In this document: positions 21,826 to 48,103 of the stretch, piece after piece
Numbering within the stretch: the first letter of the stretch is position 1
Layout of the letters: each line of letters opens with the position of its first letter
NCBI RefSeq assembly: GCF_024256385.1
Contig: NZ_JAMLFW010000002.1
Span: 2,046,001-2,110,000, forward strand
From: Anatilimnocola floriformis
GTDB taxonomy: Bacteria; Planctomycetota; Planctomycetia; Pirellulales; Pirellulaceae
Direction of reading: 5' to 3'
DNA: 64,000 nt
Position numbers and translations under genes: made by a program
Notes under the pieces: model-generated
Database searches by the model: none
The model's input: the letters and a program-made list of their open reading frames with translations, nothing else
What the model was told of the DNA's origin: nothing

Positions 21826-24800
21826 CTAGTTCGCGCCGATTAAAACGAGCGGCGCCCAAAAGTACGGATGTTCGAATTCGCTTTGCTTGCGGAGCGAACG
21901 CTTGGCGTCACGCAGGCACACGCCATAGCTGAACTCAGATTTTTGCCAATCCTTGGCGACGTCGGCGGCGAAGTAGCTGAGGAGCACGGCCGAGGCTTTG
22001 TCGTCGACCAGCCAGTTGTTGGCGACGACGCGCTTGCTGCCAGCGCCGAGGAAGCCGCGCGACAACGACCAAACACCTTCGGCCCGTTGCGTGGGACCGG
22101 CGTTCGTTTGGCAAGCGCTGAGCAAGGCCAATTCGCATTGCGATAAGTCGAGGGAATAGATTTCGGCCAGCGTGAGATAGCCGTCACTCGTGCCGACACT
22201 GCCGTCGGCTGGTTTTGCTAAGGCAAGCGCGCCGAAGAAGTTGCCATTGCGATTATCGACCAGGCCGTGGCAGGCGAAGTGAATCAGCTGTTTGCCGACG
22301 ATCGATTTTCGCACGGCATCTTCGGTCGCTTGCGGGCCGGTTAGTTTCGTTGCGGCAAAACCGACTTTGCCGAGCCATTGGCAGAGCCAGTTCGATTCGA
22401 GTTCGGTGTGCGGCAGATCAGCCAGTTGTCCGCCGGCGGAGCGGAAGCGTTCACCGGCCGTCAGCGAACTGCCACGCGAACTGGCGACCATCGCCGTCAG
22501 GGCTGAGGTCTGCGGCCGGCTGACCGACAGGACGGCTGGCGAGGCAGCCTTGGTCATCGCGGCTGCGTTTCGCCGGAGCGTGGTGAAAACGTTGATCGAA
22601 GGCGTGTAGGTGATCGGTGGGCAGGAATCGAGAGCGAACTTCACTTCGCCTTCATTGTCGGTCACGAGAGCTTCGAACGGACACAGACAGATCGCACCGT
22701 CGGGTACAACGACCCACGATTCATAGCCGTTGGTCAGCAGCTTCTCGCGATACTTCGCGGGCACGAGCACATCCCACAGCACGCGCAGATCGGCATACAA
22801 GCCGCTCGCTTCCTTGCGGTTTTGCAGTTTAAAGAGCATGCCGTCGCGATACTTGTTGGCCGCGCTCCCCAGCATTACTTTTTGAATCGCTTCGTGATGC
22901 AGAATGCCTGCTTTCGTGCCGAGCGCTTGGGCTTGTGTCTCATCAAGTTTCAGTTCGTGCAGTTCGGCCGAGCTGCCATCGATGCACAGAATATAGGAAT
23001 GAGTTTCGCCGGCGAAAAAGACGAGGGCCAATCCTTTTTGGTCGCGCAGCGTTCGCTGAAATTGCCGCAGATGCGTGGTGGAAGTCGAAGCCGACAGCAA
23101 TCGGCGATAGACTTCGCTCGACGTGCGAGCTTCGCGATGAAGGGCATAGAGTTGATCGCGAGTGGCGGAGATTTTCGCGGCGATCGTTTCTTGTTCTTGC
23201 TGGCTGAGCGACGGCGTGAGCTGTTTTTCGAGCCGGGCGATTTCGCTTTGCAGTTGGCTGGTTCGATCGGCGAATTGCTTTTTCTCTTCCGGCGAACGGG
23301 CTGCGAACAAATCGGAGCCGCTGCAGTTGAGCTCGTCGATCAGCGAACGAGCGCGGCAGCGATCGATGACCGTCAGGCACTCATCGAGATCGGCTGCGGC
23401 TCCTTGTTCGAATTGCCACGTTAGCATGCATTCAAAAACTTCAAGACTCTCCTCAAAAGCATCGGCCCGTTCATGTTCGGCGCCGGCGCTACGGACGCGG
23501 ACTTCTTCGGCGCTGTTGATGGCTTTGCGCAGATCGGCGAGAGCTTCGGATTTATTACCTTCTTTGCGGTGGATGCGAGCCCGCAAGAAGTAAGCGTCGA
23601 GCATTGACTTGGGCGAGGCCCGCGTCGATTCGTGAATCTGCAACGCATCGTCGACCAGATCGAGCGCGGCTTCGTCTTTGCCCTGCGCGAGGGCGATTTC
23701 GGCGCGGAACTGCAGAATGTTCGCATACTCGACGTGCAACTTTCCGAGCCGGGAAACAACGAGCTGCTGCGCGACGAGGCATTGTTCTTCGGCTTCGGCG
23801 GGCTTCTTGCTGTTGAGGAGCAGGCCGGCCAGAGACATGCGGGCCGTGGCATGAAAGAGCGATTCCACGCCACGATCCCATTTCGAATAGATGTCGATCG
23901 CCTCACGCAGCAGAGCCGTTGCCTGATCGTAGTTTTTGTCCATGCGCTCGACGTGAGCGAGGGCCTTCAGCGTACTGGCATATTCGGGATGTTTCTTACC
24001 AAACAGGCCGATGATTTCGCGCTGAGCTTCGGCGATCAACTCGCGGGCTTCGGCAATGCGATTGGAGCCAGACAAGATGTTGGCCAAGCCAATCTGAGAG
24101 TTGGTGGCTTCGCCGAGATCGAGTTTTTTAGAAATGGCAATCACCCGGCGATGCATCACTTCGGCTTCGCCCAAGCGTCCTTCTTCTTCGTAGAGCTGCG
24201 CGAGGTTACTAAGGACCAGGCCCATGCCGCGGCTGTCGGGACCCGAGCGCTTTTCGATCAGCGCGAGCAAGGCACGCATCGCGGCTTCGGCTTCGGAACG
24301 ACGGCCGACGTGAAACAAGTTGTGGGCCAGCAGCCGCCGAGCATCGATCAAGTGCGGAGTGGAGGTTTTCTCCAAGATTGCCACCGACCGCTGGGCTGTC
24401 GAGATCGCATTCGCAAAATCTCCAGCCGAGTGATAGGCCTGAATCAGATTCAGCATGCGAATGCCCGCGGTCGTGGAGTTGGCTCCTTCGAGCCGTTCCA
24501 TCACCGCGATGGGTAGCTTGGCGTGCTCGATTGCCTCGTCGTATTTGCCGAGGCCCATCTCGGCATAGCTCAGCACGTGATAGGCGAAGCTCAGGTCTGG
24601 AGAATCTTTCTGCGGCATGACCTGGAGCGCGCCGTTGCTCAGTTTGATCGCCTCGGGATAGCGATTCAAATTGTTCAGGGCGCAGGCTTGTGAAACTGAC
24701 AGGCGAGCCGTCGCGGAATGCTCGGCACCTAGTTCGTGCTCGGCGATCTTGCGGGCAGCGCCGTAGCAGGACTCGGCTCGCTTCATGTCCCAGATTTCAA

Positions 24801-25044
24801 ACGCCAGCTCCCCGACCCATTCCAGCAGTTCCAGTCGTTTTCGCGAATCGCCGAGCTGGCGCACGAGCTCTTCCATCCGCGGCAAGGCCGCCCGGATGTC
24901 CGCTTCGCGGCCGAGGCGTTTGGCCTCGTTGACACGGTCCTCGAACGGCAGGAGAGCTTGCAGAATATCGTTGTCATCAGCGCGGGCTGCGGCGGGCAGA
25001 GCAAAATAGCTAAGCACAGCAAGCAGGAGTGTTGTTCGCCACAT
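21826..25044 (-). CDS. Secreted TPR protein with CHAT protease domain
   Basis: A 1072-residue protein. The N-terminal signal peptide (about 1-22, ARADD) is followed by roughly a dozen tetratricopeptide-like helical repeats (about 30-560), a helical linker with coiled coil (about 570-690), and a C-terminal CHAT domain (about 740-1072). The caspase-like dyad is present: H926 in LIHFACHG and C978 in ALLSACQTNAG. The ending YFWAPLVLIG is typical of CHAT domains. CHAT proteases cleave protein partners that the TPR part or a partner binds; targets are unknown here. The ATG at 25044 is chosen because it gives a signal peptide and a GAGG sequence lies upstream; the longer 25269 start has 75 residues without coding character. 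No protein substrate gene is adjacent, so it is probably a stand-alone gene. Confidence 0.9.
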   Translation of the reverse strand: MWRTTLLLAVLSYFALPAAARADDNDILQALLPFEDRVNEAKRLGREADIRAALPRMEELVRQLGDSRKRLELLEWVGELAFEIWDMKRAESCYGAARKIAEHELGAEHSATARLSVSQACALNNLNRYPEAIKLSNGALQVMPQKDSPDLSFAYHVLSYAEMGLGKYDEAIEHAKLPIAVMERLEGANSTTAGIRMLNLIQAYHSAGDFANAISTAQRSVAILEKTSTPHLIDARRLLAHNLFHVGRRSEAEAAMRALLALIEKRSGPDSRGMGLVLSNLAQLYEEEGRLGEAEVMHRRVIAISKKLDLGEATNSQIGLANILSGSNRIAEARELIAEAQREIIGLFGKKHPEYASTLKALAHVERMDKNYDQATALLREAIDIYSKWDRGVESLFHATARMSLAGLLLNSKKPAEAEEQCLVAQQLVVSRLGKLHVEYANILQFRAEIALAQGKDEAALDLVDDALQIHESTRASPKSMLDAYFLRARIHRKEGNKSEALADLRKAINSAEEVRVRSAGAEHERADAFEESLEVFECMLTWQFEQGAAADLDECLTVIDRCRARSLIDELNCSGSDLFAARSPEEKKQFADRTSQLQSEIARLEKQLTPSLSQQEQETIAAKISATRDQLYALHREARTSSEVYRRLLSASTSTTHLRQFQRTLRDQKGLALVFFAGETHSYILCIDGSSAELHELKLDETQAQALGTKAGILHHEAIQKVMLGSAANKYRDGMLFKLQNRKEASGLYADLRVLWDVLVPAKYREKLLTNGYESWVVVPDGAICLCPFEALVTDNEGEVKFALDSCPPITYTPSINVFTTLRRNAAAMTKAASPAVLSVSRPQTSALTAMVASSRGSSLTAGERFRSAGGQLADLPHTELESNWLCQWLGKVGFAATKLTGPQATEDAVRKSIVGKQLIHFACHGLVDNRNGNFFGALALAKPADGSVGTSDGYLTLAEIYSLDLSQCELALLSACQTNAGPTQRAEGVWSLSRGFLGAGSKRVVANNWLVDDKASAVLLSYFAADVAKDWQKSEFSYGVCLRDAKRSLRKQSEFEHPYFWAPLVLIGAN

Positions 25045-25353
25045 AAGAGCCTCGGGCAGGGATGTGCGCAGATGATGGTTGCCAGACATACAACCAGTAC
25101 GGAGAGGTGTGACACCATTCTCAGGGCCAAAATCGGTGGGTGCAAGAAAAAGCATCGCTCCCTCGTTATGGGTGCGCCCTGGATTGCTGTTTCCGCGCCG
25201 CCAGCATTTTCCTACAGTCCGGTTCTGGGGCACCCGGCCGGCGCGAAAGCCCCCTGACGAATTACCCATTTTCCCTGGTACATTGCAGATTGGCCTCGGT
25301 TTTGCCGGTTCTGCCTTTTGTCCTCGGTCCTATCACATTTGCTGACCCCCTCC

Positions 25354-38915: not shown

Positions 38916-39352
38916 CAAACCTCACCTTTTTGGTGCAGACAGAGATAGTTCGGGCGCACCCGGTGAATAGCCCGGGTATTCCCGGCTCATAACCCGGGTA
39001 CAAAATTGCGAGGATTCTAGCAGCCGACAGCATTCACGCAAGGACGCAGAAATGGCGAATAACGGCTGGCGAAATAGGGGGCGGCGACGAGTTTCGGCTG
39101 GCAATCTCACCGAAAACGTCAAAAACGGGTTTTCCATCCCGCGGACTCCCCCTGACTGACGCCCGATTTGCCAAAATTCTGGCAAATCTTTTTGCGGCCG
39201 GCCGGTTTGCCCGTCATATTGAAGGGGCTACCGTTTGAACCAAATCACCCCTTGGTTCGACTAACAGACCAGTTGCCACGGCGAGTACGCGGTTCTCGTG
39301 CGTGAAAACGGTTCTGGTGCGCGCATTGGATGTTCGTTCGGAGTTACGACTT
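38916..39352. other. Intergenic region between divergent pyrB and export cluster
   Basis: No gene is visible in these 437 bases. Noticeable pieces are a hairpin with CCCGGG arms (38971-38976 and 38993-38998) about 60-80 bases before the pyrB start, a repeated CTGGCGAAAT/CTGGCAAATC-like word, and the dyad at 39237-39258. Promoters of both directions must lie here but no clear pair of hexamers could be named. Confidence 0.5.
39237..39258. promoter_or_regulatory. Inverted repeat upstream of the export cluster
   Basis: GAACCAA (39237-39243) and TTGGTTC (39252-39258) are perfect inverted arms with an 8-base spacer, about 95 bases before the first ATG of the export cluster. It could be an operator or a 5' leader hairpin. 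Function is inference. Confidence 0.4.
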
Positions 39353-41515
39353 ATGTTGCGTTCGACTCGCTGCTGGCTGGCCTTATTTCTGTTGTGTGGA
39401 GCGTCGTCGGTTGGGGCTCAGGATGCCGCGGCTCCGGCAACTCCTCCGGCATCGCCGCCCGCTTCTGGTTCTCAGCCAGCCGAAAATGACCCACTAAAGG
39501 TCACGCCCCTCGGCGTTCGCCAGGCCCGCGTCGAGCGGATGGTGGAAGATCTCGAACGCAAATTCAATCAGCTGGCCCAAGCCCTCGCCAAAGCCGAGCC
39601 GGAACGGGCTCAGCGCTTGGCCGATGCTTTGAAGCAAGCTCAAGCCCTCGGCATCAAGGGACGCATGTCGGCGATCACGCGGCTGCTCGATCAGCAGCAG
39701 CTCGATCCCGCCAAAGCCGAAGAAACGAAGATACTCACCGATCTAAAGGACTTGCTCGCGCTCCTGCTCGACGAAAAGAGCGAAAAGGACAAGAACCTCG
39801 AAGAAGCCAAACGGCTGGAAGAGTGGAAGAAGAATATCGAAGAGATCATCCAGGCGCAAAAGGGTGAGAAACGCGAAGCCGACAAAGTCGCCAATAAAGA
39901 TGACACGCTGAAGTCGCTCGAAGCCAAGATCAAAGCCATCGAAGCCCTCGTTGAACAGCAAAAAGGGGTGATCGCCGGCACCGAAGCCGCCCGTAACGAC
40001 GGCATCCAAGGCCTCGGCAAAATCGCCGCCGAACAAAACAAAGTCCAGCAAGGCACCAAAGCCGTCGCCGAACAAATCGCCAAAGAAGCCGGCGACAAGA
40101 ATGGTGAAGGCAAACCGGGTGAAGGCAAACCGGGTGAAGGCAAACCGGGCGAAGGCAAACCGGGTGAAGGTAAGCCGGGTGAAGGCAAGCCGGGTGAAGG
40201 CGAGCCGGGTGAAGGCAAGCCGGGTGAAGGTAAGCCAGGTGAAGGTAAGCCAGGTGAAGGTAAGCCAGGTGAAGGCCAACCGGGCGGTGGATCACAACCA
40301 CAGCGTCCGCCAGAAGCTGGCGAAAAGCCATTGAAGCAAGCCATGCAAAATCAGCAGCAGGCCGAAGCCAAGCTGCAAGAAGGTAAAGGCAAAGCTGCTC
40401 AACAAGACGAGCAAGCCGCTCTCGAAAACCTGCAGCGGGCGCTCGGCGAATTGAAGAAGGAATCGCAACGCATCGCGTCGCTCCCGCCTGAAGCTTTCGA
40501 AAAGATGGCCGGCAAGCAGGACGACATCAAGAATCAAACGGCCAAGATTCAGGAGAAGATGGAAAAGGGTGAGCAAGGCGGCAGCCAATCGGGTGGACAG
40601 CCCGGCGGTGGCGGCGAAGGTGGTGAATCGGGCGGTGGCGAATCGGGCAAACCCAAGCCCGGTCAGCAGAAAGTTCAGCAAGCTCAGAAGTCGATGCAGC
40701 AAGCCTCGGGCGATCTCCGCAAGCAAGATCCCGCCGATGCCTCACGCAAGCAAGGTAAGGCCATTAAGGATCTGGAAGAAGCTCTGAAGGAAATCGAAGA
40801 GCGTCTCGCCCAACTCCGCGAAGAAACCCAAGTCGAAAAGCTCGCCAAGCTTGAAGCTCGCTTCCGCGAAATGCTGGCGGTGCAAAAGGAGCTGTCGGCC
40901 AAGGCGTTGGTGCTCGACAAGAAGAAGACCGACAACTTGGGCCAGCTCGCTCGCAGCGATCGCAACGCCCTGAAGTCTCTCGGCGAGGATGAACGCGGTC
41001 TGGCCGTGATCAAGCAAGAAGGTCAGCCCGATCGTGTGCCGCTGGCGTTCCGCGCTCAGCAGGCTCTTGAGATCATTCTCGAAGATGGCACGAGCGTGGT
41101 CTTCCCCGATGTGGTGGAACAACTCCGCGATGACCTGATGACGGTCGGCGGTTTGCTCGCCGACAATCTCCGCACCGACAACTACACGCAGACCATGCAG
41201 CGAGAAGTGGAAACCACGCTCGAAGAACTCATCGAAGCGTTGCAAAAAGCTCAGAAGCAAAAGGATGGTGGCGGCGGTGGTGGAGGTGGCGGCGGCGGTG
41301 GTGGCAACGAGCCGCTGTTGCCGGGTTCGGCCGAGCTGAAGTTGCTGCGGGCTGCTCAGCTCCGCGTCAATCGTCGCACCACATCGCTCGAAGCCGCCCG
41401 GCCTGAATCGGGAGAGTTCGACAACGTCCTCAAGCAAGAAGTGCTGAAGGTCAGCGAACGGCAAGCCGACATCGGCGAAATGACCATTCGCATTCTCGAA
41501 CGCAGCGGCAAGTAG
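39353..41515 (+). CDS. Secreted coiled-coil protein with GEGKP repeats
   Basis: A 720-residue exported protein of unknown function and first gene of a six-gene run. The signal peptide covers about residues 1-23 (ending VGAQ). Long charged helices predicted to form coiled coil lie at about 45-235 and 340-490, separated by the Gly/Glu/Lys/Pro block of 12 pentapeptides (bases 40103-40282). Further Gly-rich linkers ([16 protein letters not shown]; later a run of glycines) separate a helical C-terminal domain with [15 protein letters not shown]-like and [13 protein letters not shown] helices. The ATG at 39353 has GGAG upstream at 9 bases. A scaffold or periplasmic spacer function would fit, but this is inference. 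Confidence 0.8.
40103..40282 (+). repeat. Twelve-copy 15-bp in-frame tandem repeat (GEGKP)
   Basis: The unit GGTGAAGGCAAACCG is repeated 12 times. Ten copies encode GEGKP, one GEGEP and one GEGQP. Later copies share GGTGAAGGTAAGCCA almost unchanged, so expansion is recent. The repeat keeps the frame and is prone to length change. Confidence 0.92.
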
Positions 41516-41548: not shown

Positions 41549-42610
41549 ATGTCTCGCAATCTTCGCACTTGGTTGGCGCTCGTGCTGCTCGCGCTCGCTG
41601 CTCCCGTGTTCGCGGCCGAAACGACCGATCAATTGCTCGATCGTTTCGTCAGCGAGCTCTCGACTCGCAAAAATCTGCCCGCCGAAGCGGTCAAGCAAGT
41701 CACCGATCTGGTGAAAATCCTCCGGGCCGATTCCGAAGGAAAATCACTCGCGGTTACCGAAGCCCTCCGAGCTCTCGACAAAGATTATCAGCAAGCACTG
41801 ACCGACCTCGGTGATGAAAACCTCGCCGCCGCCCTGCCAGCCCTTGCCAAGCTCTCGGCTTCGGAAGATCCCTGGCTGGCTGCCGATGCAGCGTACTTTC
41901 TCGCTCGCGGTTACTTGATCGGCGAACGCTTTGAAAGCGCCATGCCGCTCCTCGATCAGCTCCGCACCAAGTTGGCCGATCGCTCGCTCCACCAGGGCGA
42001 AGCGCTCTTCCTGCAAGGTGTCGCGCAGATCCAGTTGCTCAAGCACAAAGACGCGATGGCTTCGCTCAACAAGTTCATCAAGGACTATCCCGATGCTCCC
42101 GAGCGGATGCGAGTCGCTGCCGCCCGTCAGGTGGAACAGCTGAAGCTTGTTGAAGAAGGAACCCTCTCGGACGTGCAGCTCCGTATGGACTACAGCCGCC
42201 GTAAGCTCGGCCTTGAAGATACCGGCAAGGACACTCGCGAACAGCAAGATAAAATCATCTCGATGCTCGCCAAGCTCATCAAAGAAGCCGAAGAGAAAGA
42301 ATCGCAAGGCAAGGGGAGCGGCAAACCGATGGGCGAAAAGCAGCCCGGCCAAGGCGAGGGTGGTGAAGGCGAAGGCCAAGGGCAGGGCGAAGGCCAGGGA
42401 CAGGGTGGCAACTCCGGCGGCGGCAGCAAAGGCACCGACGGCGAAGCGGTGAAACGCCTCCATCGTGGCGGCCCACAAAGCCCCTGGAGCCATCTCCGCG
42501 ACAAGGATCGCGATCCGGTCTACAACGCCATTCGCGAAAAGTTTCCCGGCCGTTATCAACAGTTGATCGAGCAATACTACAAGAGCTTTCAGGACGAAAC
42601 CGACGGCTAG
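41549..42610 (+). CDS. Secreted tetratricopeptide-type protein
   Basis: A 353-residue exported protein. Signal peptide about 1-22 (ending VFAAE). The N-terminal half (about 25-225) is helical with TPR-like repeats (for example LPALAKLSASEDPWLAADAAYFLARGYL and EALFLQGVAQIQLLKHKDAM). A Gly/Gln/Glu/Ser-rich linker (about 265-305) precedes a small C-terminal domain with RDPVYNAIREKFPGRYQQLIEQYYK. The last block resembles a motif at the C-terminus of other planctomycete proteins of unknown function. It starts 33 bases after the previous stop and so belongs to the same transcript. Confidence 0.78.
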   Translation: MSRNLRTWLALVLLALAAPVFAAETTDQLLDRFVSELSTRKNLPAEAVKQVTDLVKILRADSEGKSLAVTEALRALDKDYQQALTDLGDENLAAALPALAKLSASEDPWLAADAAYFLARGYLIGERFESAMPLLDQLRTKLADRSLHQGEALFLQGVAQIQLLKHKDAMASLNKFIKDYPDAPERMRVAAARQVEQLKLVEEGTLSDVQLRMDYSRRKLGLEDTGKDTREQQDKIISMLAKLIKEAEEKESQGKGSGKPMGEKQPGQGEGGEGEGQGQGEGQGQGGNSGGGSKGTDGEAVKRLHRGGPQSPWSHLRDKDRDPVYNAIREKFPGRYQQLIEQYYKSFQDETDG

Positions 42611-42675: not shown

Positions 42676-43923
42676 ATGCAGCGCAACGCACGAACTCGAC
42701 TCGTCTCCCTTGTGCTCCTGTCACAAGTGGTGGTTCTCTTTCTTATCGCAGCATCTGTGGCTCAGGAACAAACTCCTGAGCATCCGCAGATAACATTGCT
42801 CGACGGAAAAACCGTTGCCACGCCGAACCTGAGTGTCGCCGCGGGCGCTGTTTCCGGCACCGACATTCCCGCCGGCACCACGCTCGACGACCTGCAACTG
42901 ATTCAACTGACGGCAGCGCCGGTTCTGCCACCCCTCGAGAAGCCCGCCATCATCGTCGATCTGGTCGGCGGCGGTAGCATCGGCGCCAAGCAAGTCACAC
43001 TGGCTGACGATCAATGCATCATTACCTGGGCCGGTGGCGATCCGCTCAAAGTCTCGATCGATGCCCTCCGCGCCATTCGTTTACAACCGACGATCGACAG
43101 TGAAGAATTCAACAAGTCCCTCGCCGCGCCGGCTGCCGATGTCGATCGCCTGTTCGTGAAGGTCGAAGGCAAAATCGACAGCCTGACGGGCTTGATGAGC
43201 AAATTGACGGAAACCGAAATCTCGCTCGAAATCGACGGTCAGGTTCGCAACTTGCCTCGCGATCGCGTGCTGGGTGTGGTCATCTCTCAAGCCGCTCCGG
43301 AAACACGTTTGCCGCGGTGCACGTTTCATTTGCGCGATGGCTCGGTCCTGGGTGGCGATCTGATTTCCCTGCAAGGAAACAAAGCTCAGGTGCAGGTCGG
43401 CGGCAACAGCCAAATTGCCCTTCCCTGGGATACTGTGCAACGCGTGGTTGTTCGCTCCTCACGCGTGCTGTTCCTTTCCGATCTCAAGCCCACTGCCGTC
43501 AAGCAACAAGCGTTCGTCACTCTCGCTCGACCCTGGCAAAAAGATCGCAGCGTCACCGGCAAGCCGCTGACACTCGGCACACGCGTCTTTGACAAGGGCA
43601 TCGGCGTGCAATCGCACAATGAGTTGACCTTTGATGTCCCCGATGATTTCGACTCGCTGAATGCCACCATCGGCATTGATGCCGACGCGGCCGGCAAGGG
43701 TGACTGCCTCATTGAAGTTATGGTCGATGGCCAGAAACTCCTTTCCGAACGAGTTCGCGGCAACGAGCCGCCGCGCGACATTCAAGTGCCGTTAAAAAAC
43801 GCCCGTGCTAGTTCGCTCGCTGGCACTCGACAAATCACGCTCGTCGTCCTGCCCGGCGCCGATCTCGATCTTGCCGATCATGCCGACTGGGCTCTTGTCC
43901 GCTTGCTGAAGAACAAAAAATGA
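42676..43923 (+). CDS. Secreted NPCBM-domain protein
   Basis: A 415-residue exported protein. The signal peptide (about 1-29) is followed by a beta-rich region (about 30-270) with repeated DGS/GTL-like strands and a C-terminal NPCBM/NEW2-like domain (about 275-413), where GKPLTLGTRVFDKGIGVQSH and IGIDADAAGKG mark the fold. NPCBM domains bind carbohydrates, so the protein may dock on the cell wall or an extracellular polysaccharide. The stop overlaps the start of the next gene (43920 ATG, overlap of 4 bases), which is a sign of coupled translation. Confidence 0.83.
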   Translation: MQRNARTRLVSLVLLSQVVVLFLIAASVAQEQTPEHPQITLLDGKTVATPNLSVAAGAVSGTDIPAGTTLDDLQLIQLTAAPVLPPLEKPAIIVDLVGGGSIGAKQVTLADDQCIITWAGGDPLKVSIDALRAIRLQPTIDSEEFNKSLAAPAADVDRLFVKVEGKIDSLTGLMSKLTETEISLEIDGQVRNLPRDRVLGVVISQAAPETRLPRCTFHLRDGSVLGGDLISLQGNKAQVQVGGNSQIALPWDTVQRVVVRSSRVLFLSDLKPTAVKQQAFVTLARPWQKDRSVTGKPLTLGTRVFDKGIGVQSHNELTFDVPDDFDSLNATIGIDADAAGKGDCLIEVMVDGQKLLSERVRGNEPPRDIQVPLKNARASSLAGTRQITLVVLPGADLDLADHADWALVRLLKNKK

Positions 43924-45965
43924 ACGTCCGCACTTGGTTGCGATGCTTCGTAGCTTTGTTGATTACAGCGTCTTCCACGCTGTCTCCACTAGCAAACGCC
44001 GCCGATGAAGAAATCACGCCGGCCGAACTGGCTGCCATCCGCGCCGCTGAAGAAGCTCGCATCACGGCGATCAGCAATGTTTACGGCTCGGTCGTGGCTA
44101 TCTACGGGAACGATCGCAAAGGTGGCGGCTCGGGCGTGCTCTACGATCCCGCCGGTTACGCCCTGACGAATCACCACGTTGTCGCCGGCGCTGGTGTCGA
44201 TGGCTGGGCCGGTCTCGCCGATGGTTTGCTCTATCGCTGGAAGTTAATCGGCACCGATCCCGGCGGTGACGTCGCCATCATTCAGCTCGAAGCCAAGGAG
44301 AAGGGGAAGAAGTTTCCAATTGCACCCCTCGCCGATTCCGAACGCGTGCGCGTCGGCGACTGGGCGATGGCCATGGGCAATCCGTTTGTCCTCGCCGAAG
44401 ATCAGCGCCCCACGGTCACGCTCGGCATCGTCAGCGGTGTGCATCGCTTTCAAGCCGGCTCGGGCCTGAATCAACTCGTCTACGGCAACTGCATTCAGGT
44501 CGACAGCTCGATCAACCCGGGCAACTCCGGCGGCCCGCTGTTCAACCTGCACGGCGAGGTGATCGGCATCAACGGTCGCGGCAGCTTCGAAGAGCGCGGC
44601 CGCGTCAACGTCGGCCTGGGCTACGCGATCTCGGCCAATCAGGTTCGCAATTTCATTCCTGAGCTCCTCTCCACCAAGCTCGCCCAGCACGGCACGCTCG
44701 ACGCTCAGTTCGCCAATCGACTGGGCGGCGTCATCTGCCAGTCGGTCAATCTCGACTCGCCTGCCGCGAAGGCCGGGCTCGAGCTCAGCGATCGCCTGGT
44801 TTCGTTCGAAGGCGTGAAGATCGCCGACGCCAATCAGTTCACCAACATCGTGTCGACCTATCCTGCCGGCTGGCCGGTGACGTTCACGGTCGAAAAGGAA
44901 GGGAAGAATCAGCGCACGATCACCGTGCGTCTGACTTCACTCCCCTACGAACCGATCGTCAAGGAACAGCCGAAGATCCAGCCGGTTCCCGAAGAAAAGA
45001 AATCCGAAGACAAAAAGCCCGACGATAAAAAACCGGAAGAGAAACCTGCCGAGAAGAAGCCAGAAGAAAAGCCTGCCGAAAAACCAGCGGAACCAACAGC
45101 GGCTCAGGAAGAAAAGAAGAGCGAAGAAAAGAAAGACGAAGAGAAAAAGGAAGAACCGAAAAACGACAAGCCAGCCGACAAGCCCGACGTACCGAAGAAC
45201 CCGATGCCGCAAATCAAGATGCCGCCGGCCAAGCCTGACTTCGGCAAGGCTGGTGAAGTGCGCAATAAGAAGCTGAACGAGACGATCGCCCGCGAATTGG
45301 CTGGATGGTGGCAGGCAACGAGTCGTGAGAGCAGTTCGTCCGAGTCAGACGGCCTCAGCATCGCCAGCGATATTTTCCGCCAACAGGAAAAGGTCGGCAC
45401 GCAATCGATGCACATCAGCTCGGAAGGCGGAATCCTCGTCAGCTATGAGATCGATGGTAAGCAGACACGCGTCGGCTATGACGGCAAAGTCTATTGGCTG
45501 CAGTCTGGCGATAATGCTTCACAGGAAGTGACGACGGCGAAGGCTCATCGCGATCCGCATTTCGCCCAAGCTGTCGTCCTCTGCGGTTTGCTGCAGCCGG
45601 AGATCTGGCAGGCGGCGGGCAAGTTGAGTCTGGCTGGTTCCGACAAAGCAGCCGGCCGTCTCTGCTATCGTCTCGAACTGACCGATGCTGACAGCGAAGA
45701 GCTGTGCGTTTGGCTGAGTGTGGTCAACGAACAACTGCAACCGCAAATCCAACTCGTAAAGACCGGCGTCGGTATTGATGACGACGAGCCGATCGCGAGC
45801 ACAATTTATCGCCAATGGAAACGGGCCGGCAACTACGACCTGCCAACCGAGCGCGTCCTGGTGAGAAAGCTCGCTGAAGTGGAACAGCTGCGGATCGTGA
45901 CGACACAGATCGCGACGCTTTCTCCTGCGAAAGCAATTTTCCAAACGCCGAAGAAAGCCGACTAA
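43920..45965 (+). CDS. Trypsin-like serine protease with PDZ domain
   Basis: A 681-residue exported HtrA/DegP-type serine protease with a C-terminal extension. Signal peptide about 1-27. The catalytic triad is complete: H86 in YALTNHHVVAG, D117 in GGDVAIIQLE and S203 in NPGNSGGPLF. A PDZ domain (about 255-345) follows. A Lys/Glu/Pro-rich linker (about 350-440, repeats of KPEEKPAEK) leads to a C-terminal domain (about 450-681) without known signature. It probably cleaves or binds misfolded or envelope proteins. It overlaps the stop of the previous gene and the next gene starts 2 bases after its stop. Confidence 0.9.
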   Translation: MNVRTWLRCFVALLITASSTLSPLANAADEEITPAELAAIRAAEEARITAISNVYGSVVAIYGNDRKGGGSGVLYDPAGYALTNHHVVAGAGVDGWAGLADGLLYRWKLIGTDPGGDVAIIQLEAKEKGKKFPIAPLADSERVRVGDWAMAMGNPFVLAEDQRPTVTLGIVSGVHRFQAGSGLNQLVYGNCIQVDSSINPGNSGGPLFNLHGEVIGINGRGSFEERGRVNVGLGYAISANQVRNFIPELLSTKLAQHGTLDAQFANRLGGVICQSVNLDSPAAKAGLELSDRLVSFEGVKIADANQFTNIVSTYPAGWPVTFTVEKEGKNQRTITVRLTSLPYEPIVKEQPKIQPVPEEKKSEDKKPDDKKPEEKPAEKKPEEKPAEKPAEPTAAQEEKKSEEKKDEEKKEEPKNDKPADKPDVPKNPMPQIKMPPAKPDFGKAGEVRNKKLNETIARELAGWWQATSRESSSSESDGLSIASDIFRQQEKVGTQSMHISSEGGILVSYEIDGKQTRVGYDGKVYWLQSGDNASQEVTTAKAHRDPHFAQAVVLCGLLQPEIWQAAGKLSLAGSDKAAGRLCYRLELTDADSEELCVWLSVVNEQLQPQIQLVKTGVGIDDDEPIASTIYRQWKRAGNYDLPTERVLVRKLAEVEQLRIVTTQIATLSPAKAIFQTPKKAD

Positions 45966-45967
45966 CC

Positions 45968-46996
45968 ATGAACACTCCTGCAATCAAAACGATTTGCCTG
46001 ATGTTGTCGCTCGTGAGTTTGTCGCTTACATGCGGCAGGCCTACTCGCGCGCAAGAGCCCGACAACGGCCCCTTTGCCGATGCGGTGGCCGCGGCGCAGA
46101 AGCGTGTGGTAAAGATCTACGGCGCGACGATCGGTCGGTCGCCCGGTTATGCGACCGGAATCATTGTTTCGCCTGATGGCCAGATCATTACTGCCACCGG
46201 CGTGCATCTGTCGGAGGGAAGCGTCCGCGTGACGATGCCCGACGGCAGTCAGCAACATGCGGAAGTGGTGCGTCGCAGCAATTCGTTGCAAACCGCGCTG
46301 ATCAAAGTGAGCGTGCCCACACCGGACTTCTTTGCCATTCCGGAGCAACCCGCCGCCAAGAAAGGCGATTGGGTTCTCGCGGTCAGCAATGCATTCAAAG
46401 TGGCTGAAGGGGCCGAACCGCTGAGCGTGAATATCGGCGTCCTTTCGCTCCGTGTGCGTCTCGATGCTCGCCGCGGTTACAACGATTTTCCCTATGAGGA
46501 CGACGTCTTTCTGATCGATGCCATCACGAGCAACCCTGGCGCAGCCGGCGGCGCGGTGGTGAATGCCCAGGGTGAACTTGTCGGCCTTGTTGGCAAAGTG
46601 ATCGAAGGCAAAACAACCGGCACCAGGCTCAATTACGCGGTCCCTGCCGATCTGCTGCAGCGATTCATCCGTGGCGAAGAACCAGCGCCCGCCGTGGTCG
46701 AAAACACCACACCCTCGGGTGGCAAAGGCGAACTCGGCATCCGCCTGTTCGCCCTCGGCGGTCGCAAGAGCCCGGCTTACATCGATCGCGTGTTGCCCGG
46801 CAGCCCTGCTGCCGAAGCGGGCTTCAAGACCGATGATCTGGTCACCTCGATCAACGGCGAAGTGGTCCGTGACTCCGGCGATTTCCGCCGCCTGACCGAA
46901 GCGTTGCAAGCCGGCGTAGACGTCAAAGTGGAAGTGAAGCGAAAGAATGATCTCATCAGCGTGGTGGTGAAGCCCGCAGCGATCAAAGCACCTTAA
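45968..46996 (+). CDS. HtrA-like pseudoprotease with PDZ domain (first)
   Basis: A 342-residue exported protein with the trypsin/PDZ architecture of HtrA but without the triad. At the catalytic serine position the GNSGGP motif is GAAGGA (A193). The usual histidine position is G78 (TATGVHL, with H80 shifted) and the aspartate position is T109. The signal peptide is about 1-28, and the PDZ domain is at about 245-335. Chaperone or scaffold use of the fold is the likely role. It starts 2 bases after the previous gene's stop, so it is made together with the active protease. Confidence 0.88.
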   Translation: MNTPAIKTICLMLSLVSLSLTCGRPTRAQEPDNGPFADAVAAAQKRVVKIYGATIGRSPGYATGIIVSPDGQIITATGVHLSEGSVRVTMPDGSQQHAEVVRRSNSLQTALIKVSVPTPDFFAIPEQPAAKKGDWVLAVSNAFKVAEGAEPLSVNIGVLSLRVRLDARRGYNDFPYEDDVFLIDAITSNPGAAGGAVVNAQGELVGLVGKVIEGKTTGTRLNYAVPADLLQRFIRGEEPAPAVVENTTPSGGKGELGIRLFALGGRKSPAYIDRVLPGSPAAEAGFKTDDLVTSINGEVVRDSGDFRRLTEALQAGVDVKVEVKRKNDLISVVVKPAAIKAP

Positions 46997-47023
46997 AGCA
47001 GGCTCCGTCTGCGGATCAGAACC

Positions 47024-48103
47024 ATGCCGACCAAATATCTCTCGCGTTTGCTGTCGCTCGTCCTCGCCGGCTTGCCGGTCCTTGGCAGCGCTCAGGAAAA
47101 GCCCGCCACCAAAGCTGATCAACTCCAGATCGTCCAAGGCACGCTGCTCGCGCCCAAGGCCTTTCGCGCCGCGGCCAAGCGGGTGCTGCCTTCGATGGTC
47201 ACCATCGAAGGAATCGGCGGTCTGGCTTCAGGCGTTTCGGCGGCCGGCATCCAGGCTCCCGGCGAAGGACCGACGAGCGGCTTGATCATTTCCGCCGACG
47301 GCTACATCGTGACGAGCACTTTCAATTTCATCCGCAAGCCACCGATCATTACCGTGACTCTGGCCAGCGGCGAACGGAAAGTCGCGACGCTGCTCGGCCG
47401 CGACGAAACTCGCAAGATCTGCCTCCTCAAAATCGACGGCATGAATAATCTGCCGGTTCCGACCTGGGCCGAGCGCCAGCAGTTGCGCGTGGGCCAGTGG
47501 ACGGTCGCACTGGGCATTGGTTTCGGCGGCAATGAACCGGCTCTTACGGCGGGAATTATTTCCGCAACCAGTCGCATCGGCGGCAAAGCCGTGCAAACCG
47601 ACGCAAATCTCAGCCCGGCCAACTACGGCGGACCCCTCATCGATCTCGAAGGCCGCGTCATCGGCATCAGCGTGCCGCTAAATCCGCAATCGAAAGAAGA
47701 AGGCTCCGGTGTCGACTGGTACGACTCGGGCATCGGCTTCGCAGTGCCGATCGGCGGCAACGAAAAGATCATCGATGCGTTGAAGGCCGGTAAGACGCTC
47801 CAGCCGCCGTTCCTCGGCGTGCAAAGCGAACCGCGCGGTACTCCGCCCAGCGGCGCTCACGTGCTGCAAGTCGTTCCCAAGTCGCCAGCCGAAGCGGCGG
47901 GGATCAAATCGGGCGATCAGCTGCAAGCCATCGACGGCACCGAGATTCTCGACGTCACGCATTTGCAGTCGGTCATCGCCCGCTATAACGCCGGCGACAA
48001 AGCGACGATCAAGATCGTGCGCGGCGAAGAAAAACTCGAAGTCACCCCCGAGTTCGGAACGCCGCCGGCGCAAGCAAAACCGGCGACGCCAGGCAAAAAG
48101 TAA
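47024..48103 (+). CDS. HtrA-like pseudoprotease with PDZ domain (second)
   Basis: A 359-residue exported protein with the HtrA fold and no triad. At the serine position the motif is ANYGGPL (Y201), the histidine position is F100 (VTSTFNF) and the aspartate position is K131. Signal peptide about 1-23 (ending GSAQ). PDZ domain about 255-345, with PPFLGVQSEPRGTPP before it. It is the last gene of the run and starts 27 bases after the previous stop. The convergent esterase gene ends 7 bases beyond it. Confidence 0.87.
   Translation: MPTKYLSRLLSLVLAGLPVLGSAQEKPATKADQLQIVQGTLLAPKAFRAAAKRVLPSMVTIEGIGGLASGVSAAGIQAPGEGPTSGLIISADGYIVTSTFNFIRKPPIITVTLASGERKVATLLGRDETRKICLLKIDGMNNLPVPTWAERQQLRVGQWTVALGIGFGGNEPALTAGIISATSRIGGKAVQTDANLSPANYGGPLIDLEGRVIGISVPLNPQSKEEGSGVDWYDSGIGFAVPIGGNEKIIDALKAGKTLQPPFLGVQSEPRGTPPSGAHVLQVVPKSPAEAAGIKSGDQLQAIDGTEILDVTHLQSVIARYNAGDKATIKIVRGEEKLEVTPEFGTPPAQAKPATPGKK

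Follow-up and report, generated by a model that had tools for sequence, protein, structure and literature searches.

The locus lies in Anatilimnocola floriformis (Pirellulaceae), within a window of 64,000 nucleotides, the whole stretch of DNA that was analysed (contig NZ_JAMLFW010000002.1, positions 2,046,001 to 2,110,000; plain coordinates below count from the first nucleotide of this window). It encodes three consecutive proteins with a trypsin-like domain and a PDZ domain, here called A, B and C, preceded by three further genes, f2, f3 and f1.

39302 to 41515, plus strand: f2, 737 aa, low-complexity and coiled as judged by eye from the sequence
41549 to 42610, plus strand: f3, 353 aa, weak TPR match in Pfam (24.8 bits against a cut-off of 26.3)
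42676 to 43923, plus strand: f1, 415 aa, NPCBM domain in Pfam, overlapping the start of A by 4 nt
43920 to 45965, plus strand: A, HtrA-like protease, 681 aa (ORF list and Pfam)
45968 to 46996, plus strand: B, pseudoprotease, 342 aa (ORF list and Pfam)
47024 to 48103, plus strand: C, pseudoprotease, 359 aa (ORF list and Pfam)

Only 2 nt separate the stop of A from the start of B, and 27 nt separate B from C; the open reading frames and lengths of B and C are as an earlier sequence-only reading of this DNA had given them. Because f2, f3 and f1 lie upstream on the same strand and f1 runs into the start of A, the genes f2-f3-f1-A-B-C likely form one six-gene operon. No Pfam family matches f2. Beside the triplet in 60 regions from related genomes (L069-L128, described below), the f1, f2 and f3 families recur in 54, 46 and 47 regions, respectively, and all three also recur outside the class. 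The f2 protein contains a repeat run, and its paralogue in the same genome has GEQKPGEQKP-type repeats in the corresponding region. Elsewhere in the window, the minus strand at 21826-25269 carries an ORF of 1147 aa with what by eye look like TPR repeats and, after them, a CHAT-type peptidase domain.

All three proteins match Pfam Trypsin_2 and then PDZ_2: A with E 4.2e-30 and 2.8e-10 (PDZ at residues 262-332), B with 3.1e-16 and 1.5e-13 (256-335), and C with 9.6e-23 and 6.5e-15 (262-341). B and C have therefore kept their PDZ domains, as had been claimed, and neither matches any family other than trypsin and PDZ at E<=0.001. Judged by eye, the N-termini of A, B and C resemble Sec signal peptides. 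The catalytic triad is complete in A (H86, D117, S203), and alignment to A and to Escherichia coli DegS places the corresponding residues of B and C as follows.

46199 to 46201, plus strand: codon of G78 in B, at the catalytic His position
46289 to 46291, plus strand: codon of Q108 in B, at the catalytic Asp position
46544 to 46546, plus strand: codon of A193 in B, at the catalytic Ser position
47321 to 47323, plus strand: codon of F100 in C, at the catalytic His position
47414 to 47416, plus strand: codon of K131 in C, at the catalytic Asp position
47624 to 47626, plus strand: codon of Y201 in C, at the catalytic Ser position

Eight of the nine triad residues quoted in the sequence-only reading are right; for the Asp position of B it named T109, the codon after Q108 and one residue off. 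By its triad and trypsin-like-PDZ architecture A is an HtrA (S1C)-type protease, with activity and a trimeric form predicted, while B and C, judged by alignment and predicted structure, are proteins of the HtrA fold with a PDZ domain and no catalytic triad.

We collected the corresponding domains from the window and the loci L069-L208, L267-L284 and L297-L304, and merged identical domains before counting (A, 147 to 131; B, 159 to 146; C, 157 to 144). The triad is intact in all 126 fully readable A domains (five of the 131 rows are cut), in none of the 146 B domains and in none of the 144 C domains. The replacements are alike from genome to genome. In B, the His position is held by Ser in 87 and Gly in 50 of 146, with other residues in the rest and His in none of the 145 readable rows; the Asp position is Glu in 65 and Asp in 23; and Ser is retained at the nucleophile position in ten. 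Of the 144 C domains, 142 have Tyr where the catalytic Ser would be, and the His position is Phe in 125 and Tyr in ten. The 60 regions L069-L128 were fetched around B and C matches from 54 of 60 related genomes (G006, G015, G035, G036, G038 and G052 were left out) and, being picked for those matches, are no random sample; 57 of them contain A, B and C side by side as separate ORFs. The exceptions are L080, where A and B are fused, L107, which has A and B without C, and L128, which has C alone; a contig end truncates A in L085 and L088. Between the window and a genome of the same genus (G001), Ka/Ks is 0.092 for A, 0.071 for B and 0.090 for C, values that are rough since synonymous sites, at a pS of about 0.7, approach saturation.

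By these counts, the losses in B and C are old and fixed. A tandem of three HtrA-like genes, two of them without a triad, could in principle reflect sequencing error or decay after duplication, and both had to be considered. Sequencing error is rejected because the homologues of B and C equally lack the triad, and decay because the frames are open across many genomes, the replacements are alike and Ka/Ks is low; we regard the chance that either accounts for the losses as negligible. Both outcomes named in the sequence-only reading as fatal to it, homologues with a restored triad and errors in the sequence, were thus looked for and not found, and the alignment of homologues that it proposed shows the substitutions kept. 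The recurrence of the trio in many planctomycete relatives, at times with two members joined in a single protein, suggests that the dead copies are functional partners and not wreckage.

The same counts bear on whether B or C could be enzymes with a different set of catalytic residues. In favour of this, B often has an acidic residue at the Asp position, and the oxyanion-hole Gly193 is present in B in all 145 readable rows. Against this, B has lost its His throughout and nearly always its Ser, C has Tyr in place of Ser almost without exception, and His is absent from the columns that are invariant or almost so in B (25 rows) and C (26 rows). We consider catalysis of another kind very improbable.

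The age of the lineages was addressed with a quick tree of 95 rows, including six other HtrA proteins of the same genome, with SH-aLRT as its only support: A (27 rows) is separated with support of 99, B (31 rows) with 100 and C (31 rows) with 100, and the six other HtrA proteins fall apart from them. Two rows in B and C, both from L127, are long. As each of A, B and C occupies one side of a well-supported branch, the tree argues for two old pseudoprotease lineages, and a recent local duplication of A as the source of B and C is rejected. The proposal that the two copies diverged independently accordingly stands in a deep sense, B and C being separate clades, but not in the sense of recent local copies of A. 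Within each of the three clades the rows of the window type and those of a second, main type separate, which suggests that the three genes were passed on or duplicated as one unit.

The B family is present in 149 of 198 sampled genomes of the class (profile match, E<=1e-35), in single copy in all but six. The family coded f21 contributes no genome to the 149, and C matches in it reach 9e-51 at best, a value that ordinary HtrA proteins attain as well. Outside the class, represented by 187 of the 199 genomes of a phylum sample, B occurs in 21 (E<=1e-50), and C occurs in all 21 (E<=1e-69). Two more of these genomes, G466 and G291, have C without B; in G466 the contig ends beside C. In G291, the region L333:3117-6205 holds an intact A-like ORF followed by two divergent C-like ORFs (triads NNT and RGF), which may represent an early or a separate form of the triplet. 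A further set of 25 loci (L300-L304, also in the main pool, and L315-L334, of which L320 and L334 belong to the class) gave the same picture: the triad is intact in 23 of 24 A domains, the other lacking the His column, and in none of 23 B domains, and Tyr occupies the Ser position of C in 23 of 26; the remaining three are a fragment and both C-like ORFs of L333. L334 has A and B with no C within 8 kb. By the labels of 80 contigs with relatives (Pirellulaceae, Mariniblastus, Thermoguttaceae and some bins labelled Phycisphaeraceae), the group that carries the triplet is the Planctomycetota; two labels are odd, one bin being called Candidatus Nealsonbacteria and one only 'bacterium'.

The genome of A. 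floriformis itself contains a second triplet, of the other type (G000:C1:1533780-1537574). Its C protein is longer than that of the window, with a second PDZ domain and a tail with weak matches to esterase families. Upstream lie genes for a MoxR AAA protein, a DUF58 protein and a BatA-type double-anchor protein, together with one for a large protein that matches ThuA and VWA weakly; the MoxR AAA, DUF58 and BatA-type genes are not beside the window copy, where only f2, f3 and f1 precede A. Pfam Trypsin_2 has 27 matches in this genome (L293-L295 yielded no row in the triad census), and among 22 trypsin-like ORFs with a readable triad, 16 are intact and six are not. Four of the six belong to the two triplets, as their B and C members. 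Trypsin-like ORFs without an intact triad also occur at L289 (G000:C2:720600-724600), adjoining an intact one, and at L296 (G000:C4:127000-129700).

The most direct indication of how the three proteins relate comes from natural fusions. A and B form a single ORF on six distinct contigs (L172, L138, L174, L193, L315 and L316); L080 and L172 are one contig, as their lengths and ORFs agree. In this L080/L172 fusion the tail of A is retained and B begins at residue 36, without its N-terminal signal region, which marks a true fusion and not a missed stop codon. In the B tree L193 is placed apart from L138 and L174, suggesting at least two A-B fusion events. B and C form a single ORF on three contigs (L166:8612-10960, L170:8879-10972 and L171:2785-4920), and these three make up one clade. 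No A was found beside them in the fetched flanks of the three loci, one of which has only 2.8 kb upstream; the neighbours on either side, named by eye, are a sulfatase-like gene and a DUF1549/1553-like gene. Since B is fused now with one neighbour and now with the other, a physical partnership of the three proteins is plausible, and the fusions, the best evidence here, point to A, B and C touching one another.

A predicted structure of the B-C fusion, made from an alignment of the three fusions plus B rows in which the C half rests on three rows, has a pTM of 0.49, with no confident packing of the halves. Each half separately resembles known HtrA structures: the B half matches 2rce (Z 24.0, rmsd 3.0, 192 aligned) and the C half 3sti (Z 23.8, rmsd 2.7, 176 aligned). 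As there is no nearby A, the B-C proteins may act without an adjacent A. This fits a different reading, in which B and C are PDZ chaperones or scaffolds on an HtrA fold that hold unfolded or envelope peptides and share an operon and a compartment with A without binding it. The PDZ domains of both proteins and their predicted fold would suit such a role, and so would the B-C fusions; the A-B fusions on six contigs speak against it, as does a feature of C to which we return below. We think this reading unlikely, though with a real chance of being right.

Two extra domains bear on the possible task of the trio. The first is at the end of A.

45243 to 45962, plus strand: last 240 residues of A, predicted LolA/LolB-like fold (pLDDT 90.8, pTM 0.88)

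The predicted structure of this tail matches 3bk5 (Z 15.2, rmsd 4.1, 197 aligned), 3buu (Z 13.7, rmsd 4.3, 203 aligned), LolA 1iwl (Z 11.7, rmsd 3.8, 164 aligned), LolB 1iwm (Z 9.4, rmsd 4.9, 159 aligned) and RseB 3m4w (Z 6.9, rmsd 5.2, 159 aligned, a Z that may mean only a common arrangement). By this prediction the tail probably binds lipid or a lipoprotein. A LolA/LolB-like fold, here predicted, is an unusual companion of an HtrA protease. When the C-terminal domain of A is compared between its two types, hhalign gives E 2.2e-4 at a probability of 45 percent, which is suggestive only. The second domain belongs to C, which in clusters of the main type is longer than in the window: behind a second PDZ domain, 84 of 144 C proteins (for example L069:6770-8746) carry an extra tail with weak matches to PHB-depolymerase and Peptidase_S9. 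At the nucleophile position of this tail Ser is found in one of the 84, so that it looks like an alpha/beta-hydrolase domain without its Ser, which would make the long C a double pseudoenzyme. Together, the LolA-like tail of A and the MoxR/Bat-type run of the paralogue make it likely that the job of the trio is the surveillance or processing of envelope proteins.

We aligned the three proteins to DegS of E. coli K-12, whose T167 and Q191 we take to be the equivalents of the DegP activation residues. Two codons of C are of interest here.

47573 to 47575, plus strand: codon of R184 in C, aligned with DegS R178 in loop L3
47594 to 47596, plus strand: codon of Q191 in C, aligned with DegS Q191

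Passages of PMC5666011 state that in HtrA trimers a conserved L3 Arg (DegS R178, DegP R187, HTRA1 R302) extends to loop LD of the neighbouring subunit and that Thr176, Arg187 and Gln200 of DegP serve activation between subunits; loop L3 of one subunit, through this Arg and with the Gln, signals to loop LD of the next (PMC5666011 and PMC11252331, in part). All 128 readable rows of A have the L3 Arg and all 130 readable rows the Gln, and C has both in 144 of 144, having lost Gly193 in 141 of 144. B has the Arg in 15 of 146, the window protein among them, and the Gln in none of 145, mostly with Val, Leu or Ile instead. The further 25 loci agree, with the Arg in 23 of 24 A, 25 of 25 readable C and six of 23 B, and the Gln in 24 of 24, 24 of 25 and none of 23, respectively. 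Ser or Thr occupies the LD position T167 in each of 27 A rows, in 30 of 31 B rows and in ten of 31 C rows, but in only 13 of 23 B rows of the 25-locus set.

Sender residues would do nothing for a dead subunit itself, which makes C look like a dedicated activator; when kept senders are paired with kept receivers, just one of the two cyclic orders fits, C to A to B to C. The trio could thus form an obligate HtrA heterotrimer of 1:1:1 composition, with a relay that runs one way and in which C activates A. C, its own LD changed, would send through its kept Arg and Gln to A; A, keeping both sender and receiver, would act on B, whose LD retains Ser or Thr; and B, with its Gln lost and its Arg mostly lost, would face the changed receiver of C at one interface. 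In this full form the proposal is speculative, and we hold it to be rather unlikely.

The kept Arg and Gln of C also weigh on the alternatives. They would be needless in a free scaffold. Another possibility is that B and C serve solely to inhibit A, diluting or locking it as inactive subunits until a signal frees it; a fold, an operon and fusions common to all three proteins are what such inhibitors would show, and the loss of Gly193 would fix C as an inactive subunit. A permanent A-B fusion would nevertheless be odd for a releasable inhibitor, and the L3 Arg and Gln of C fit activation better, which makes dedicated inhibition quite improbable in our view.

A pseudoprotease partnered with an active HtrA is of a kind already known from MamE and MamO of magnetotactic bacteria, where, as here, an active HtrA is encoded with an HtrA-type pseudoprotease (PMC4794232, in passages of that report). 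According to the same passages, MamO is inactive yet required for MamE proteolysis and acts on MamE without a physical interaction being detected there. Its substituted Gly193 and bulky residue in loop L1 resemble C, which has mostly lost Gly193 and has Tyr for Ser. The trio differs in comprising two ancient pseudoprotease lineages rather than one, and in that fusions with the active enzyme occur naturally. B and C score 39.9 and 36.2 bits against the NCBIfam MamO model, whose cut-off is 800, and, unlike MamO, they have no Pfam match to its transporter domain. A surface di-histidine metal site of the MamO type may be absent from B and C, as none of their conserved columns listed is a His. DegS, DegP, DegQ and HTRA1 share the protease-PDZ architecture and fold but are trimers, or multiples of trimers, of one active chain, whereas two of the three subunits proposed here lack the triad; the residues by which one subunit activates another in those homotrimers are present in A and also in the non-catalytic C. 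In mixed HTRA1 trimers a dead subunit restores a defective one (PMC11252331, in part), an effect like the one inferred for the trio, although there the subunits are engineered variants of one gene and here the dead ones are separate conserved genes. The paralogue cluster resembles MoxR/Bat-type operons in its MoxR AAA, DUF58 and BatA-type genes, which the window copy, with only f2, f3 and f1, does not. We know of no Bat operon that carries a protease triplet. A 2008 survey of 91 prokaryote genomes counts 42 inactive serine protease homologues (PMC2605481), and many PDZ proteins are noted for planctomycetes in another report (PMC6411480); among the literature titles listed we found neither a planctomycete HtrA triplet nor a conserved three-lineage set with natural fusions.

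On balance, we favour the reading of a single envelope HtrA hetero-oligomer, with A as its active subunit and B and C as its two inactive ones. In its simplest form this would be an HtrA trimer with one each of A, B and C, in which A alone would cut, and B and C would supply PDZ peptide-binding sites and interface loops that decide when and on what A acts. The triad counts, the co-occurrence of the genes, the fusions, the low Ka/Ks, the kept Arg and Gln of C and the precedents of MamO and HTRA1 support it. Counting against it are the low pTM of the fusion model, the B-C fusions without A, the absence of C in L107 and L334, the ability of MamO to work without a detected interaction and the roughness of Ka/Ks. 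The observations beneath it are the triad losses and their fixation, the gene order, the fusions and the Ka/Ks, with the folds as predictions; export, complex formation, stoichiometry, activation and substrate are what we infer. The suggestion in the sequence-only reading that the two pseudoenzymes regulate or hold the active protease gains from the co-conserved triplet, the fusions, the low Ka/Ks and the fixed replacements, with the correction that the losses are ancient and not local; its finding of two pseudoproteases is real, and older and wider than could be seen from the window.

Work on activation between HtrA subunits has relied on trimers built from a single kind of chain, in which it takes engineering to part the sender loops from the receiver loops. 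If the hetero-oligomer is real, these roles would be split over three genes, allowing a direct test of switching from subunit to subunit, and a function would be in hand for a gene set found in most sampled genomes of a large class (149 of 198 for B). It would also place an older and more complex case alongside MamO.
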